The notes under the pieces are model-generated. The model was not told the DNA's origin, searched no databases, and saw only the letters and a list, made by a program, of their open reading frames with translations. 64,000 nt of DNA from Candidatus Treponema equifaecale (lineage in GTDB: Bacteria; Spirochaetota; Spirochaetia; Treponematales; Treponemataceae): positions 1 through 64,000 of the forward strand of contig JAGHUJ010000023.1 in the NCBI GenBank assembly GCA_018064905.1, in the 5' to 3' direction. The position numbers and the translations under genes are program-made. Below are positions 12,601-60,333 of this stretch, one piece after another (the stretch's first letter is position 1; every line of letters starts with the position of its first letter).

Positions 12601-15042
12601 ATGCCTGAAAATTTTACAACTGATTCAATTACAACAAATGAACCTGACATTTTTGACATAATGGCAGGAGCTTCTCCACAGACTCAAAGCTATCTTGATG
12701 TTCTTAATGAAGAGCAGCTGGAAGCCGTTACTCATTCTGGTTCGCCTCTTTTGATTCTGGCTGGTGCCGGTTCTGGAAAGACCCGTGTAATCACCACAAA
12801 AATTGCCTATCTTATTGCTGAAAAAAACATAGATCCCTACCAGATTCTTGCCGTGACTTTTACAAAAAAAGCCGCAAATGAAATGCATGAGCGTGCCATT
12901 GCTCTTGATGCACGTGCCCAATATTCACAGATAAGGACTTTTCACTCATTTGGTGCCTGGTTTCTTCGTCTTAATGCACAGGCTGCCGGAATTGATCCAA
13001 ATTTTACTGTTTACGATGATGATGACTGCGTTACATTGATTCAGAAGGCAATGCCAAAGCTTACAAAACAGCAGGTAAGTCATTTTGCTCACGAAATTTC
13101 TCTGGCTAAGGATTATTGTTATCTTCCTGATTCTCCAAAGCTTGATGAAATTGACTCTGATCCTGAATTCCGTGAGGTTTATGAGGCCTATACAAAGCGT
13201 CTTCGTGAAACTGGAAATGTGGATTTTGGTGATCTGATTATGCTGCCTTATCTTGTGCTTCATAACGACGAATATGTTCGAATGCGGCTTTTCAATCGTT
13301 TTCGGGTCATTATGGTGGACGAATATCAGGACTCCAACGTGGCTCAGTTTCTTTTGCTGCAGGAATTGTGCGGTGCCAAGTACGGAATGGCGGCTTCTCC
13401 AGAAAATCCTGATGGGATTTATGTCTGCGTTGTTGGTGATGATGACGAGTCGATTTATAAATTCCGTGGGGCTGAAATTCAGAACATTCTTACGTTTAAG
13501 GACAAGTTTCCGGGAACAAAAATTATCCGTCTTGAAAAAAATTACCGTTCCACAGAGCAGATTCTGAGCATTGCTGACGATGTTGTCCGCAACAATGAAG
13601 GCCGTCTTGGAAAAACGCTGAGTGCTGAACGGGGACAGGGAAAACAGCCGGTTCTGGCCTTCCTTCCAAATCAGGATGAAGAGGCGAATTTCTGTGCCGA
13701 CCTTATTAAGCTTGCCCATGAGCACGGCTGTCCTTACAGTGACTGGGCCATATTATATAGAACAAATGCTCAGTCTTTGACATTTGAATCAACTTTCCTC
13801 CATAGAAAAATTCCTTATCAGGTGGTGGGTTCCCTTAAATTCTATGAGCGTGAGGAAATCAAGGACATTCTGGCCTATCTTTCGCTGCTTGCAAATCCCC
13901 GTGATGAAATTGCCTTTAGAAGAATCGTGAACAAGCCGACCCGCGGAATTGGTGCTACAACTCAGGAAAAATTGATTGCGGCCGCAAGAGAAAACATTGT
14001 AACTGCCGCTGATTATAATCTTCTGGAAGCCTGCAAAAAGAGCGCAGCTTCTCTTTCAAAAAAAGCGAAGGAAGGAATTGAAAAATTTACAGAAGCCTTT
14101 GATGAATTCAAGGACAAGCTAGGGATTGGAGCTGCGCGAAGCGTTGCAGAGGAGGTGGTTGAGCCTGTCGAAACCTCCGCAGCTGCAATGAAGGCGATAG
14201 CCGGAACAGCGGAAAGCCCGACGGCGACAGCCGTAGCTCCCGAAAAAGAAAAACTTCCTGGTGAAATTTCTGTAAAACTTTCTGAACTTATTGAGCTTAT
14301 TTCTGAAAAATCCGGAATTAAAAATTACCATGAGACTCAGGATGAAGTTTCGGGAACTCAGCGTGTGGCAAACCTTCAGGAACTGGCAAATTCTGCGGTG
14401 CTTTACGAATGTTCCAGGGAAGGACTTTTGGAATTTCTGGACCACATTGAGCTGGACAGAACTTTGGAAAATCCGGATGAAGAAACTGACGACAACCGCG
14501 TAACTTTGATTACTCTTCACAACACAAAAGGTCTGGAATTCAACAGGGTGATTATGACCGGAATGGAGCTTGGAATTTTCCCACGGCAGGACAAGACAGG
14601 TTCAGATCTGGAGGAAGAACGCAGACTTTGCTATGTTGGAATCACCCGCGCAAAAAATGAGCTTTATATGACCAACTGTTCCGTGAGAAGAATGTACGGA
14701 AGAACTGAATTCATGGCGGTAAGTCCATTTTTGCTGGAAATTGACAGTGAAAAGCTAAAGACAATCGGACACGCTCCTGCCAGCTTTAGAAGAAGTTCAT
14801 TTAGGGGCGGGGATTATGGAGAGCGTGGATTGAGCCATCCTGATACGGAAAGCGACCCGATCAAGAAAAAATATTCAAAGGGAACAAAGGTTTTCCACGA
14901 CGATTACGGTTACGGAATAATCAGTTTTTCTGAAGAAAATGAAGAAGGGGAATATTGCATTACTGTAAGCTTTGAAAATTCCGGAAAGAAAAAATTCATT
15001 CCGAAATATCAAAGCCACAGTTTAATGGTAATAAAAGATTAA
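12601..15042 (+). CDS. uvrD: UvrD/PcrA-type superfamily I DNA helicase
   Basis: LNEEQLEAVTHSGSPLLILAGAGSGKTRVIT, VDEYQDSN, VVGDDDESIYKFRGA, TLHNTKGLEF, YVGITRAK. Confidence 0.95.
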   Translation: MPENFTTDSITTNEPDIFDIMAGASPQTQSYLDVLNEEQLEAVTHSGSPLLILAGAGSGKTRVITTKIAYLIAEKNIDPYQILAVTFTKKAANEMHERAIALDARAQYSQIRTFHSFGAWFLRLNAQAAGIDPNFTVYDDDDCVTLIQKAMPKLTKQQVSHFAHEISLAKDYCYLPDSPKLDEIDSDPEFREVYEAYTKRLRETGNVDFGDLIMLPYLVLHNDEYVRMRLFNRFRVIMVDEYQDSNVAQFLLLQELCGAKYGMAASPENPDGIYVCVVGDDDESIYKFRGAEIQNILTFKDKFPGTKIIRLEKNYRSTEQILSIADDVVRNNEGRLGKTLSAERGQGKQPVLAFLPNQDEEANFCADLIKLAHEHGCPYSDWAILYRTNAQSLTFESTFLHRKIPYQVVGSLKFYEREEIKDILAYLSLLANPRDEIAFRRIVNKPTRGIGATTQEKLIAAARENIVTAADYNLLEACKKSAASLSKKAKEGIEKFTEAFDEFKDKLGIGAARSVAEEVVEPVETSAAAMKAIAGTAESPTATAVAPEKEKLPGEISVKLSELIELISEKSGIKNYHETQDEVSGTQRVANLQELANSAVLYECSREGLLEFLDHIELDRTLENPDEETDDNRVTLITLHNTKGLEFNRVIMTGMELGIFPRQDKTGSDLEEERRLCYVGITRAKNELYMTNCSVRRMYGRTEFMAVSPFLLEIDSEKLKTIGHAPASFRRSSFRGGDYGERGLSHPDTESDPIKKKYSKGTKVFHDDYGYGIISFSEENEEGEYCITVSFENSGKKKFIPKYQSHSLMVIKD
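14119..14241 (+). repeat. in-frame copy of composite hairpin repeat (GGGAT...CCC family) inside uvrD
   Basis: Near-colinear with the reverse complement of 50980-51106 (AGGGATTG-AGC--CGCGAAGCG-TG...GGTGGTTGAGC-TGTCGAAAC-...ATGAAGGC...AGCCGGAA--GCGGAAAGCCCGACGGCG--AGCCGTA...CCC). Confidence 0.9.
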
Positions 15043-24590: not shown

Positions 24591-25757
24591 CTATAGTCCC
24601 ATGGCAAAGCAGCCTTCCACAATGTCGTCGTAGTCACCAAGTCCGATTCTGGCGAGAATCAGGTCTCCGATAAGCTCTGCATCGGTGCAGTATTGTGGAG
24701 TGATTTTTAGGCCGCTTTGCTTTTCCTTTTCTTGAATTAAATTTTCGTTCAGTGCCTGGCCGCCGGTGATTGTCATCTCTTGTGGAAAATATTCCCCTGA
24801 AGCTTCGGCGGCCTGCTTAAGCTGTGCCACCGCTGAACCAAAGTCTTCGCCGGCTTTAAGCAGTTTGCCTAAATTCCAGAAACCGGTGGAAACTGACGGT
24901 AATGTGCGAAGACCTTCTGCAAATACCGGCTTTGTTGTGCAGAGATTCAATCCTTCTGTGGAGCCGGCCCTGTCGCACAATTTTCCAGGAAGCACTGTTC
25001 CAGTTCCAATCAGGGCAACTGCAAAGTCAGGGCCGCCGCAGAAAACCAGAGTGCCGATGTAAAGTCCTGTAAGTTCCTGTGCTTCAGCAGTAATTTGTCC
25101 TGCAAATTTTCCAGATTTAACAAAGGGCGGAAGCTTGTCCGAGTCTCTTTGAGTAAATCCGCAGCGCAAAAGCTCTTCATGCGTCCAGTAGGCCGGAACA
25201 AAGCGTTCCTCTGGAAGAATTGTAAGGGCCTTTCCTGTAAGCTTGTAGATAAGATATTCCGGCCCTGAAAATATTCTGCTTGCCTTGTTCCATTCTGTGG
25301 GGTACAGCTGTTTGAATGCTAGAAGCCGCGGAATAAAAATGGATTTTGTCTTAGGCAGGGTCAGGCTGGAAGGGATTGGCTCGTTGTGAAGAAGTGTAAT
25401 TGGTTGGAAAGTGTGAGCGCTGGGAACCCCGGAGTTGCCCGCAGGGCAATGAGCGTTAGCGAAGGGTGGACATAGCGACGGCTTTAAGCCGGCACACCCT
25501 TTGTTTTCTGCATTTAAATTTTCAGATTCAGCTACAATGGTTGGACCGTTGCCGCTGATGCAGATTGCTTCAATTCCGTAGTCTGGATTTTTTTGTGTAA
25601 GTTCAGAAACTGCCTTTTTTAGCGCCGGTAACCATTCCTCTGCGTGACCTGTGACAAAATTCTGGCGGGAAACAAAAACTGGCTCTTTTTTGTCTGTCAT
25701 AAGTGCCGCTTTAAGAGAAGATGTTCCAATGTCAACGCAAAGAATAGTATCTGGCAT
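24591..25757 (-). CDS. FGGY-family carbohydrate kinase-like protein
   Basis: ILCVDIGTSSLKAAL; FCGGPDFAVALIGTGTVLPGKLCDRAGSTEGLN; TGGQALNE. Confidence 0.75.
   Translation of the reverse strand: MPDTILCVDIGTSSLKAALMTDKKEPVFVSRQNFVTGHAEEWLPALKKAVSELTQKNPDYGIEAICISGNGPTIVAESENLNAENKGCAGLKPSLCPPFANAHCPAGNSGVPSAHTFQPITLLHNEPIPSSLTLPKTKSIFIPRLLAFKQLYPTEWNKASRIFSGPEYLIYKLTGKALTILPEERFVPAYWTHEELLRCGFTQRDSDKLPPFVKSGKFAGQITAEAQELTGLYIGTLVFCGGPDFAVALIGTGTVLPGKLCDRAGSTEGLNLCTTKPVFAEGLRTLPSVSTGFWNLGKLLKAGEDFGSAVAQLKQAAEASGEYFPQEMTITGGQALNENLIQEKEKQSGLKITPQYCTDAELIGDLILARIGLGDYDDIVEGCFAMGL
25408..25502 (-). repeat. palindrome-rich in-frame insert within the FGGY-kinase CDS
   Basis: Reverse strand AAAGGGTGTGCCGGCTTAAAGCCG...TTGCCCTGCGGGCAA...CACACTTT; hairpins TTGCCC-TGC-GGGCAA and CGGCT-taa-AGCCG; outer AAA-GG-GTGTG/CACAC-TTT. 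Confidence 0.6.
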
Positions 25758-38907: not shown

Positions 38908-40278
38908 CTACATTTCAAGTTTGTCAATAAAATCAAGCAGGTGCTGGGCCAGGTTTCCGTTTGAAATCAGTTTTTCGCTGAATTTTCTGAAACTTTCCGT
39001 AAATCCACTTTCCTTTAAAGCAGAGTAGTGCAGCAGTTTTTTTAATAATTCTTTGGGCGTTGCCTCGCACCTTAAAGGTGCTCCGCCGGGCTCTTGCTGC
39101 AACTCCTCGCTGCGCTGTGGTGTTTCCGCAACGATCCCTAACGCAAAGTTTTCCGCTGTGGACTTGTTGTAGCTGTTCCAATATTCCTTCAAAACTCTGA
39201 ATTGTTCTTCATCAAAAAAAACTTCCATTCTGTCCAGCAAAGCGTTCACTTTTACCAGCTGATAATCTTCATCCTGAATATAAGCATGCCACACATAAGG
39301 AATGCCGCTCAAAGCCGCTCTGGAAAGAGAATCTTCACCCCGGATAAAGTTGAAATTCATCTGTGTTAAAAGGTAGTCCCATTCTTCCTGCTGAAGAAAC
39401 GGCAGCTCCAGGACTTTAAATGGTTTTCCTGCTGCTTCATATGCCTTCATAAAAGGATCATGTCCTTTTCCAGAAGCAAGATTTACGCAAACGGAAAAAT
39501 TTTTGTCCTTTCTCTGCATTTCATCCTGAAATTCCTGAATTGCCTGAACTATTGGAACACAGTTCCTTTCATATGAAAAAAATGAAATGTTAAAAACCGA
39601 GCAGGTGTTGACTTCAACACCCAGGAACGAGCGGGTGTTGAAGTCAAGGCCCAAGAAGGAGCGGGCCTTGCGGGTGGCGTTTGAACCCGCAGAGGGGGTA
39701 GCGGAAAAGCTTTGCTTTGGAGCGAGGGGGAGACTTCCCCCACCTTTTGAAAAAATCAAACCTCCGGTTTTTTCAGTGAATCCGGGCATGAAGAAACGTT
39801 TTTTGATGTTGGTCTTGCGGGTGCCGCTTCTGAGAAGGTGAAAGTCGTCAGCATATTCTTCAGCAGTGAGATAATCCAGGTTCAGAATTTGAACAGGATT
39901 TGTAAAGGCCTCGGAAAAAATGCTGTTTTCAAGCCAGTCTGGTCTTCCGCACTGAAATCCTTCAATTATCACTGGATAATCTGCAATGTTCAATTCCAAA
40001 TTATCTGCTTTTATCACGAAATTTTTGTCCGGAGTGCAGTTTTCCAGATCCCACTTTACAACTTTCCAGACAGAATCCTTGTAGTGGAATTCCTGAATGT
40101 CCTTTGAAGGATTCACATCTTTTGCCATGGACTTAAAACTTTCCAGATTGCTTACCACCAGTGCCAGTTCAAGCTGTGGACGCAAATCTGAAACAGCCTT
40201 TGCAAGACGGTAGAGAACTCCGATGTCTCCAAAATTGTCCACTACCTTGCACAGAATCATCATGCTGTTAATTTTCAT
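38908..40278 (-). CDS. earP: EF-P arginine rhamnosyltransferase EarP (DUF2331)
   Basis: LCKVVDNFGDIGVLYRLAKAVSD; FIRGEDSLSRAALSGIPYVWHAYIQDEDYQLVKVNALL; next to efp. Confidence 0.93.
   Translation of the reverse strand: MKINSMMILCKVVDNFGDIGVLYRLAKAVSDLRPQLELALVVSNLESFKSMAKDVNPSKDIQEFHYKDSVWKVVKWDLENCTPDKNFVIKADNLELNIADYPVIIEGFQCGRPDWLENSIFSEAFTNPVQILNLDYLTAEEYADDFHLLRSGTRKTNIKKRFFMPGFTEKTGGLIFSKGGGSLPLAPKQSFSATPSAGSNATRKARSFLGLDFNTRSFLGVEVNTCSVFNISFFSYERNCVPIVQAIQEFQDEMQRKDKNFSVCVNLASGKGHDPFMKAYEAAGKPFKVLELPFLQQEEWDYLLTQMNFNFIRGEDSLSRAALSGIPYVWHAYIQDEDYQLVKVNALLDRMEVFFDEEQFRVLKEYWNSYNKSTAENFALGIVAETPQRSEELQQEPGGAPLRCEATPKELLKKLLHYSALKESGFTESFRKFSEKLISNGNLAQHLLDFIDKLEM
39055..39141 (-). repeat. 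in-frame copy of composite GGGAT...CCC repeat inside earP
   Basis: Reverse strand TTAGGGATCGTTGC...AGAGCCCGGCGGAGCACCTTTAAGGTGCGAGGCAACGCCC; outer stem GGG-at-CGTTGC/GCAACG-CCC; encodes LGIVAETPQRSEELQQEPGGAPLRCEATP. Confidence 0.8.
39599..39790 (-). repeat. tandem 30-bp repeat and palindrome cluster inside earP
   Basis: GAGC(A/G)GG.. units at 39599, 39629 and 39659 (10-aa RSFLG(L/V)(D/E)(F/V)NT); hairpins GGTGTTGA-ct-TCAACACC, CAAGGCCC/GGGCCTTG, GGGGGA-gact-TCCCCC. Confidence 0.8.
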
Positions 40279-49406: not shown

Positions 49407-50953
49407 TTAATTACGTTTCCAGGTTGGGCCGGTTGGAGTATCGATTATTGTGATGCCCCTTGCAGCAAGATCGTTGCGAATCTGGTCAGCCTTTGCAAAG
49501 TCCTTGGCTTTTTTAGCTTCTGTTCTTGCAAGTACAAGAGCTGTGATTTCTTCAGCCTCAGGATCTCCTGCATGGTCATCTGCGGCAGGTGAATTTGCAG
49601 AAGTCTGCTGAGCCAAAGCTTCAAAACCGTATTTAATCACATCCAGCGAAATGACCTTGTCCATTTCAAAAATTGCAGCCAAAGCGTCCAGAGCCTTTCT
49701 GCCTTTTCCATTTGATTCTTTCTGAAGTGCAGAAAGTGCAATTGGAGTTGCCAGATCGTTTTCAAGACCTTCCTTAAAGCGTACAAGATTTTCAGACTCA
49801 ACCTTCATCTTGCCAAGAATTTCAGCATAGTTTTCTTTTGTAAGACCTGCCTTTTCTTCATCATTTGCCTTCTGAATCAGTTTTGCGATTCTTGAATTCA
49901 ATGCGGCACGGCCCTGTTTTGCAGAGTCCATTCCATTTGCTGAATAAACCAGAGGTTTTCTGTAGTGGCCGCCCAAAAGGAAGAATCTGTAGTCCAAAGG
50001 TTCATATCCCTTATCTTTTAAAGAATAGCCCTTGTTTTCTGGAAGTGGTGTCTGCAAAGTGATGAAATTTCCTGAAGACTTGGACATTTTTCCGCCTTCA
50101 AGAATAAGGAATTCATTGTGGAGCCAGTAATTAACCCAAGGTCCTTCCTTTCTGTCTTCTTCTGAGAATGAACCTTCACTCTGAGCAATTTCATTTGTAT
50201 GGTGACAGGAACATGGTCAATTCCGCCTGTATGAATGTCAAAATGCTTTCCAAGATATTTCATAGACATAGCTGAACATTCAATATGCCAGCCAGGATAT
50301 CCCCGGCCCCAAGGTGAATCCCATGTCATTGCCTGATCTTCAAATTTAGATTTTGTGAACCAGAGAACAAAGTCTCCCGGATTCTTTTTATTTTCATCAA
50401 CAACAGCAACCTTACGCTTTCCGGCACCTGCAACAAGGTCTTCAAGATTAAGGTTTGCAAGCTTTGTGTAGTCAGAATAAGTTGAAATATCAAAATAAAG
50501 GTTTCCACCAGCCATGTAAGTGTGACCGTTGGCTTCGATTTTTTTGATAAGTTCAATCATCTCATTGATGTGTTCGGTTGCCTTACAGATTACATCAGGA
50601 TGGCGGATGTTCAGGGCGTCAATGTCCTTCATGAAGGCTTCTGTATAGAACTGTGCAACTTCCAGAACGGACTGGTGGCGTTCAGCTGCAGATTTTTTCA
50701 TTTTGTCTTCACCGTCATCACCGTCTCCAGTAAGGTGTCCAACATCCGTGATGTTCATTACGTGCTTGATGTCATATCCAAGGTACTGCAGGGTTTTGTC
50801 GAGAATGTCCAGAAAAACGTATGCACGAAGGTTTCCGATGTGAGCATAGTTGTAAACCGTAGGGCCGCATCCATAAAAGCCAACGAAATTCTCCCTGATA
50901 GGTTTGAATTCCTGCATTGCATGACCCATTGTGTTGTAAAGTTTAAGTGCCAT
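49407..50953 (-). pseudogene. cysS: cysteinyl-tRNA synthetase, interrupted by an apparent 1-nt frameshift near 50204
   Basis: N-terminal ORF 50018-50953 (YGCGPTVYNYAHIGNLRAYVFLDIL; GIDHVPV) and C-terminal ORF 49407-50087 (MSKSSGNF KMSKS motif). The missing segment reads HHTNEIAQSEGSFSEEDRKEGPWVNYWLHNEFLILEGGK in the -1 frame. Confidence 0.92.
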
Positions 50954-50979: not shown

Positions 50980-51106
50980 GGGTGTTACGGCTTACGCCGT
51001 CGGGCTTTCCGCAATTCCGGCTTTAGCCTTCAATGTTTTGTTCTGGTTGTTTCGACAAGCTCAACCACCGCCACAAAACATCGCTTCGCGTTGCTACAAT
51101 CCCTAA
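50980..51106 (-). repeat. intergenic copy of composite GGGAT...CCC hairpin repeat
   Basis: Reverse complement is colinear with uvrD 14119-14241; TGTTTTG...CAAAACA stem around GGTGGTTGAGCTTGTCGAAAC. Confidence 0.9.
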
Positions 51107-51250
51107 CACATTTCTTCAATTTTATTCCAATTTTTGCTTATGTTCAATTGGAAGAGAAAAAGTGAGAAAATTACTTTGCACTCAATTTCCACCTGGGATT
51201 TTCCGATACTATGAAAGACAATGTTTTTTTTGATATAATAAAGCTAACGG

Positions 51251-60279: not shown

Positions 60280-60333
60280 TCAAGAAATGTTTTGCATTTC
60301 TTGTGGAGCGTTAGCGACAGAATTCACGGACAT

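Follow-up and report, generated by a model that had tools for sequence, protein, structure and literature searches.

A palindromic element family of Treponemataceae with exchangeable hairpins and a copy in frame within an FGGY-family kinase gene

The kinase locus and related sites in the window

The window is a stretch of 64,000 nucleotides (contig JAGHUJ010000023.1 of assembly GCA_018064905.1) from Candidatus Treponema equifaecale, a gut Treponema of the T. bryantii/T. ruminis group. Its minus strand encodes at 24591..25757 an FGGY-family kinase of 388 amino acids, assigned by a match to FGGY_N and by ortholog alignment. The original prediction described 95 bp at 25408-25502 as a palindrome-rich in-frame insert with two hairpins and a peptide atypical for the kinase, and this description holds: the insert is translated through without a stop codon, and in an alignment with 29 orthologs of the genus the peptide NLNAENKGCAGLKPSLCPPFANAHCPAGNSGVPSAHTFQPI replaces a short turn, variable among the orthologs, between two conserved segments. 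The insert has no counterpart in any of the 29, and conservation of the peptide among relatives that lack such repeats, which would have refuted the prediction, was not found in them. Because no ortholog has the peptide, the insert is derived and species-specific in this sample. A scan of the kinase against curated families reported no model of a Rickettsia palindromic element (RPE), and the kinase presumably tolerates the additional residues.

The insert contains, at 25411..25499 on the plus strand, a complete copy of a dispersed element, which the kinase gene reads antisense to the element strand. This copy scores 83.5 bits (E 3.9e-14) with covariance model R1, built from 15 copies with hairpin loops trimmed for alignment, and 86.8 bits with model R2, built from 89 matches. 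The closing stem had been predicted to include an AAA/TTT arm; GTGTG...CACAC followed by CC is indeed the boundary of the family, but AAA/TTT (25408-25410 with 25500-25502) belongs to the flank, since other copies have no such pairing.

A search for the unit elsewhere found further copies in the window and the genome, including two in the window that had not been predicted. The second copy (14116..14241, plus strand; R1 E 1.6e-4) lies in frame, in the sense direction, in the uvrD helicase ORF 12601-15042, where it supplies extra residues at a place where orthologs vary in length; its R2 E-value of 1.5e-8 comes from a model that has this copy among its building sequences. The third (50980..51109, minus strand; R1 E 5.5e-5, R2 E 4.2e-7) is intergenic, just upstream of ORF 50018-50953. 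A probable decayed relative lies in frame in earP (ORF 38908-40278) at 39055..39146 on the minus strand. It has the same outer ends (GCGTTAGGGAT...AACGCCC), and the predicted likeness of its closing stem to that of the kinase insert is only partly right, because the AAA/TTT arm does not belong to the family. Its core is absent and the covariance model does not recognize it, but judged by its ends it is likely akin to the family. A second in-frame insert in earP (39600-39760, minus strand, GGGSLPLAPKQSFSATPSAGSN...) apparently derives from a different G+C-rich palindromic repeat, and peptides like the one that it encodes (VFSATPSAG) are present in the CarA linker of locus L258. The predicted sharing of AGCGTTAGCGA and GGACAT with an intergenic place was confirmed at 60306-60333, where GAGCGTTAGCGA...GGACATCC lies amid other palindromes and carries core words common to the element; this place has no match to the covariance model.

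Architecture and covariation of the element

Aligned copies of the element are approximately 85-135 bp long, with five helices around a conserved core, TGAGCGNNAGCGAAG, and the consensus GCnnn-A-[P2]-TGGnRCCCC-GnAG-[P4 hairpin]-TGAGCGNNAGCGAAGGGYGGA-[P2']-GA-[P5 hairpin]-n-nnnGC-CC. Helix P1 (GCnnn/nnnGC) closes the element, P2 to P4 are nested and P5 is a side hairpin. In the kinase copy, on the plus strand, the 5' arm of P1 (GTGTG, 25411..25415) pairs with CACAC (25493-25497), covarying among copies at all five pairs, and the terminal CC follows at 25498-25499. The 5' arm of P2 (GCGCT, 25417..25421) has its partner at about 25473-25477, in a register that differs among copies, and this is the weakest helix, with 81% of cells paired; P3 (ACCC, 25426..25429, with GGGT, 25464-25467) is paired in 99% of cells and has two-sided changes at 4 of 4 pairs. 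The conserved core TGAGCGTTAGCGAAG (25450..25464), which consists of invariant alignment columns, lies between two hairpins, P4 (TTGCCC-GCA-GGGCAA, 25435..25449) and P5 (CGGCT-TTA-AGCCG, 25479..25491), both of which are exchangeable modules according to covariation and module comparisons.

In an alignment of 89 copies that was fitted to the model and therefore leans toward the structure, 93.8% of cells are paired (63.8% in shuffled and approximately 40% in slid versions), with a covariation score of 0.651 against 0.167 and two-sided changes at all 21 helix pairs. The first set of copies, aligned with no model fitting but with P4 loops trimmed by complementarity, agrees (93.3% paired, score 0.602). 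The fold of a single copy is only moderately above chance (z about -2.0 to -2.1, with 6-8 of 200 shuffles equally good), and it is the family-level evidence that is decisive for the element. The share of G-T among helix pairs of the element is 0.95%, whereas G-U makes up 8.2% of pairs in tRNA stems of the same loci (Fisher p about 4e-24, a nominal value since the copies are related). The ratio of GT to AC mismatches, an asymmetry meant to show which strand folds, is 31:19, from small counts.

A second subfamily (L271, L294, L296, L307, L327, L338) shares the core and has different ends (CTACGCCGCCATGGAGCCCC... / ...GGTCGRNTTAGC). In some copies (L005, L006, L007, L035, and those at 14116-14241 and 50980-51109 of the window) the P4 loop contains a 25-bp palindrome similar to GGTGGTTGAGCTTGTCGAAACCACC, itself dispersed through the genome as a repeat in its own right, so that one repeat is nested in another.

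Distribution among genomes

Plain BLAST of the genome against itself finds the element in 8 places, and R2 finds 74 copies. A DNA search of 59 genomes (this one and relatives) gave matches in 17, all of the same genus. R1 matches at least 71 of 98 genomes of the genus and R2 at least 171 of 245 genomes of the family Treponemataceae, in 12 of 20 genera; these counts are lower bounds, as the best candidates alone were scored. The covariance-model search gave almost no matches in the rest of the phylum. Two isolated matches fall outside the family: L129, in a genome of another family (G372), and L279, in a Ruminococcaceae bin. A Treponema site (L019) has flanks 94% identical to those of L129, and a misbinned contig or transfer is therefore likely. 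Among the matches listed, the hosts of the exact core pattern are gut Treponema, including the isolates Treponema sp. JC4, T. ruminis RU1 and T. bryantii XBD1002 and NK4A124. The core pattern was not found in viral contigs, phage and plasmid records contain nothing that matches the kinase copy, and Rfam has no family matching at the gathering score. Copies within one genome are mostly 60-75% identical, with no sign of a very recent burst.

Placement relative to genes

With genes called from ORFs and hexamer scores rather than curated annotation, 9 of 158 copies lie inside ORFs, compared to approximately 140 expected from coding density. Most intergenic copies are at most 15 nt from a stop codon: the 3' end of a gene faces the copy within 15 nt in 88 of 145 cases and the 5' end in 14 of 145. 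Both orientations relative to genes occur. Several insertion sites are common to different species; others vary among species, and some are empty in relatives. Long ORFs called over three copies in the genome of the window (L117, L451, L462) resemble no known protein by eye and were set aside as spurious.

Besides the FGGY kinase and UvrD (window 14116-14241), in-frame copies occur in an RluA-like pseudouridine synthase (two species), in CarA between its CPSase and GATase domains, in UvrC (three species), likewise between domains, in TatD, and at the N-terminus of CoaE. These unrelated proteins translate the element in three or more different frames. The recurrent linkers appear to be tolerant sites, because different species hold different inserts there. 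Many copies (L134, L159, L160 and L188 among them) are flanked by short repeats in runs, for example AACTCCTAACTCCTCACTCC or TTTTCAACTTTCCGTTTTC, and these are also translated in the in-frame cases.

Exchange of hairpins

Comparisons of copies at sites shared between genomes, not all of them independent of one another, identified 44 two-sided changes of helix pairs (38 of them from one Watson-Crick pair to another) and 16 one-sided changes. The four bases that differ between L010 and L011 amount to exactly two double changes. Flanks and element are nearly identical in L074 and L187 apart from the P4 hairpins, which are altogether different, and between L068 and L164 it is mainly the P5 hairpin that has changed. 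Two copies of genome G109 also carry the P4 hairpin seen in L187, and across copies the same P4 is combined with differing P1 and P5, and vice versa. Because hairpins are swapped at shared sites and the modules occur in differing combinations, the hairpins behave as units that can be exchanged. The simplest route of exchange would be recombination of one copy with another across the conserved boxes.

Proposed mobility and alternative explanations

The kinase insert is very probably one copy of a new family of non-autonomous mobile palindromic DNA of Treponemataceae in which hairpins are swapped as units. In the proposed mechanism, a fixed scaffold (P1 to P3 and the core) would carry interchangeable hairpins and would be spread by a recombinase or transposase acting in trans. 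Selection would purge almost every copy inserted into a gene, leaving mostly those just behind stop codons, together with the few that landed in an open frame in a linker or loop of a protein, such as that of the FGGY kinase; these would be translated as about 30-40 extra residues that have no common peptide function. Hairpins would be replaced whole, probably through ectopic conversion of one copy by another or through template switching from arm to arm, and because they would be replaced as units, both arms would stay Watson-Crick.

No target-site duplication is apparent, as the left and right flanks of 77 copies have no excess of matches, and at related sites additional filler sequence or too much divergence prevents a comparison with an empty site at base precision. 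A Y1 transposase matches in 26 of 98 genomes, its presence does not track the copy number of the element, and genomes with many copies (G109, G113, G074, G059, G071) are without it. The element may, as a tentative extension of the model, be a modular DNA parasite with cassette hairpins on a fixed scaffold, recognized as folded single-stranded DNA by an undiscovered spirochete recombinase. This would explain why Watson-Crick covariation is nearly perfect and G-T intermediates are almost lacking.

The best surviving alternative, though an unlikely one, is a REP-like host site for insulation of gene ends or for binding of the nucleoid or gyrase, kept by selection after ancient mobility. The position of copies just behind stop codons and the sites common to different species would both be expected of such a site; against it, other sites differ among species and some are empty in relatives, copies lie in frame within proteins, and the placement is accounted for just as well by selection against insertions at other places.

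It is still less probable that the element is a structured RNA (a riboswitch, a stabilizer of 3' untranslated regions or a small RNA) scattered in the genome, of which the kinase copy would be a stray insertion. Its multi-branched fold covaries strongly and many copies are where a 3' untranslated structure could act, but the scarcity of G-T pairs relative to tRNA stems, the occurrence of both orientations relative to genes with antisense reading in the kinase, the swapping of whole hairpins and the lack of an Rfam family all argue otherwise.

That the kinase has acquired a functional domain in this peptide is very unlikely, even though its open frame is kept intact, given that it is present in one species only, at a variable turn, and that the frames in which the element is read differ among hosts. 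An artefact of metagenome assembly deserves next to no weight: the genome is a bin of 223 contigs and many relatives are also metagenome bins, but at the level of the family both the core and model matches are found in isolates, namely Treponema sp. JC4, T. bryantii XBD1002 and NK4A124, and T. ruminis RU1 with its complete chromosome, and species share several insertion sites.

Comparison with known systems

Integron attC sites conserve structure while their sequence varies, as the Treponema element does, and their substrate is folded single-stranded DNA. Their outer boxes are RYYYAAC...GTTRRRY, whereas the outer arms of the Treponema element are GTT...AAC rather than AAC...GTT, with five helices and no cassette array. 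Inspection of copies found GTT...AAC arms on both strands, and identity with attC was rejected.

Prokaryotic miniature inverted-repeat elements (MITEs: ERIC, RU and similar) are likewise non-autonomous, small, dispersed and sometimes fused in frame to genes (PMC2759123, PMC10969869). The Treponema element differs in its lack of target-site duplication and in a terminal inverted repeat of only 5 bp that varies among copies; a MITE of the DDE type was rejected on the absence of duplication in 77 copies. The described REP families (PMC3733652), including REP/BIME mobilized with RAYT (Y1), resemble it in being palindromic, extragenic, often just behind genes and free of target-site duplication. 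The Treponema element is longer and multi-branched, ends in GCnnn/nnnGCCC rather than the GTAG/CGTC type, and is abundant in genomes that have no Y1 transposase. Membership in REP/RAYT was rejected because there are five helices rather than a short single hairpin tagged GTAG or CGTC, and because genomes with many copies lack a Y1 partner.

The closest parallel in behaviour is with RPE, small dispersed palindromic repeats of about 150 bp that sit between genes and in frame inside unrelated proteins, nearly half of the copies being in frame (PMC10969869, PMC2635572). The Treponema element is also small, dispersed and palindromic, and both intergenic and in frame in unrelated proteins, but it belongs to another phylum, is approximately 90 bp long, has only about 6% of its copies in frame and encodes no common peptide, and its five helices make up a scaffold on which hairpins can be exchanged. 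Judged by the published descriptions of RPE, it is best placed in a new family that resembles them in action but is separate from them, the exchange of hairpins being its unusual feature. No element of this kind is described for Treponema in the open-access literature that was searched, and the family is apparently undescribed.

Rickettsia is the best-known case of palindromic elements inserted in frame, and a 2024 review regarded the same route of protein evolution in other prokaryotes as merely conceivable (PMC10969869). The Treponema element is a second system of in-frame palindromes, apparently unrelated to that of Rickettsia. Since it occupies a large gut group with cultured species, hundreds of genomes and recurrent linker sites (in CarA, UvrC and the pseudouridine synthase), the entry of foreign palindromes into proteins becomes testable. 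The scarcity of G-T pairs together with the swapping of hairpins is also a warning that strong covariation by itself is no proof of a functional RNA.
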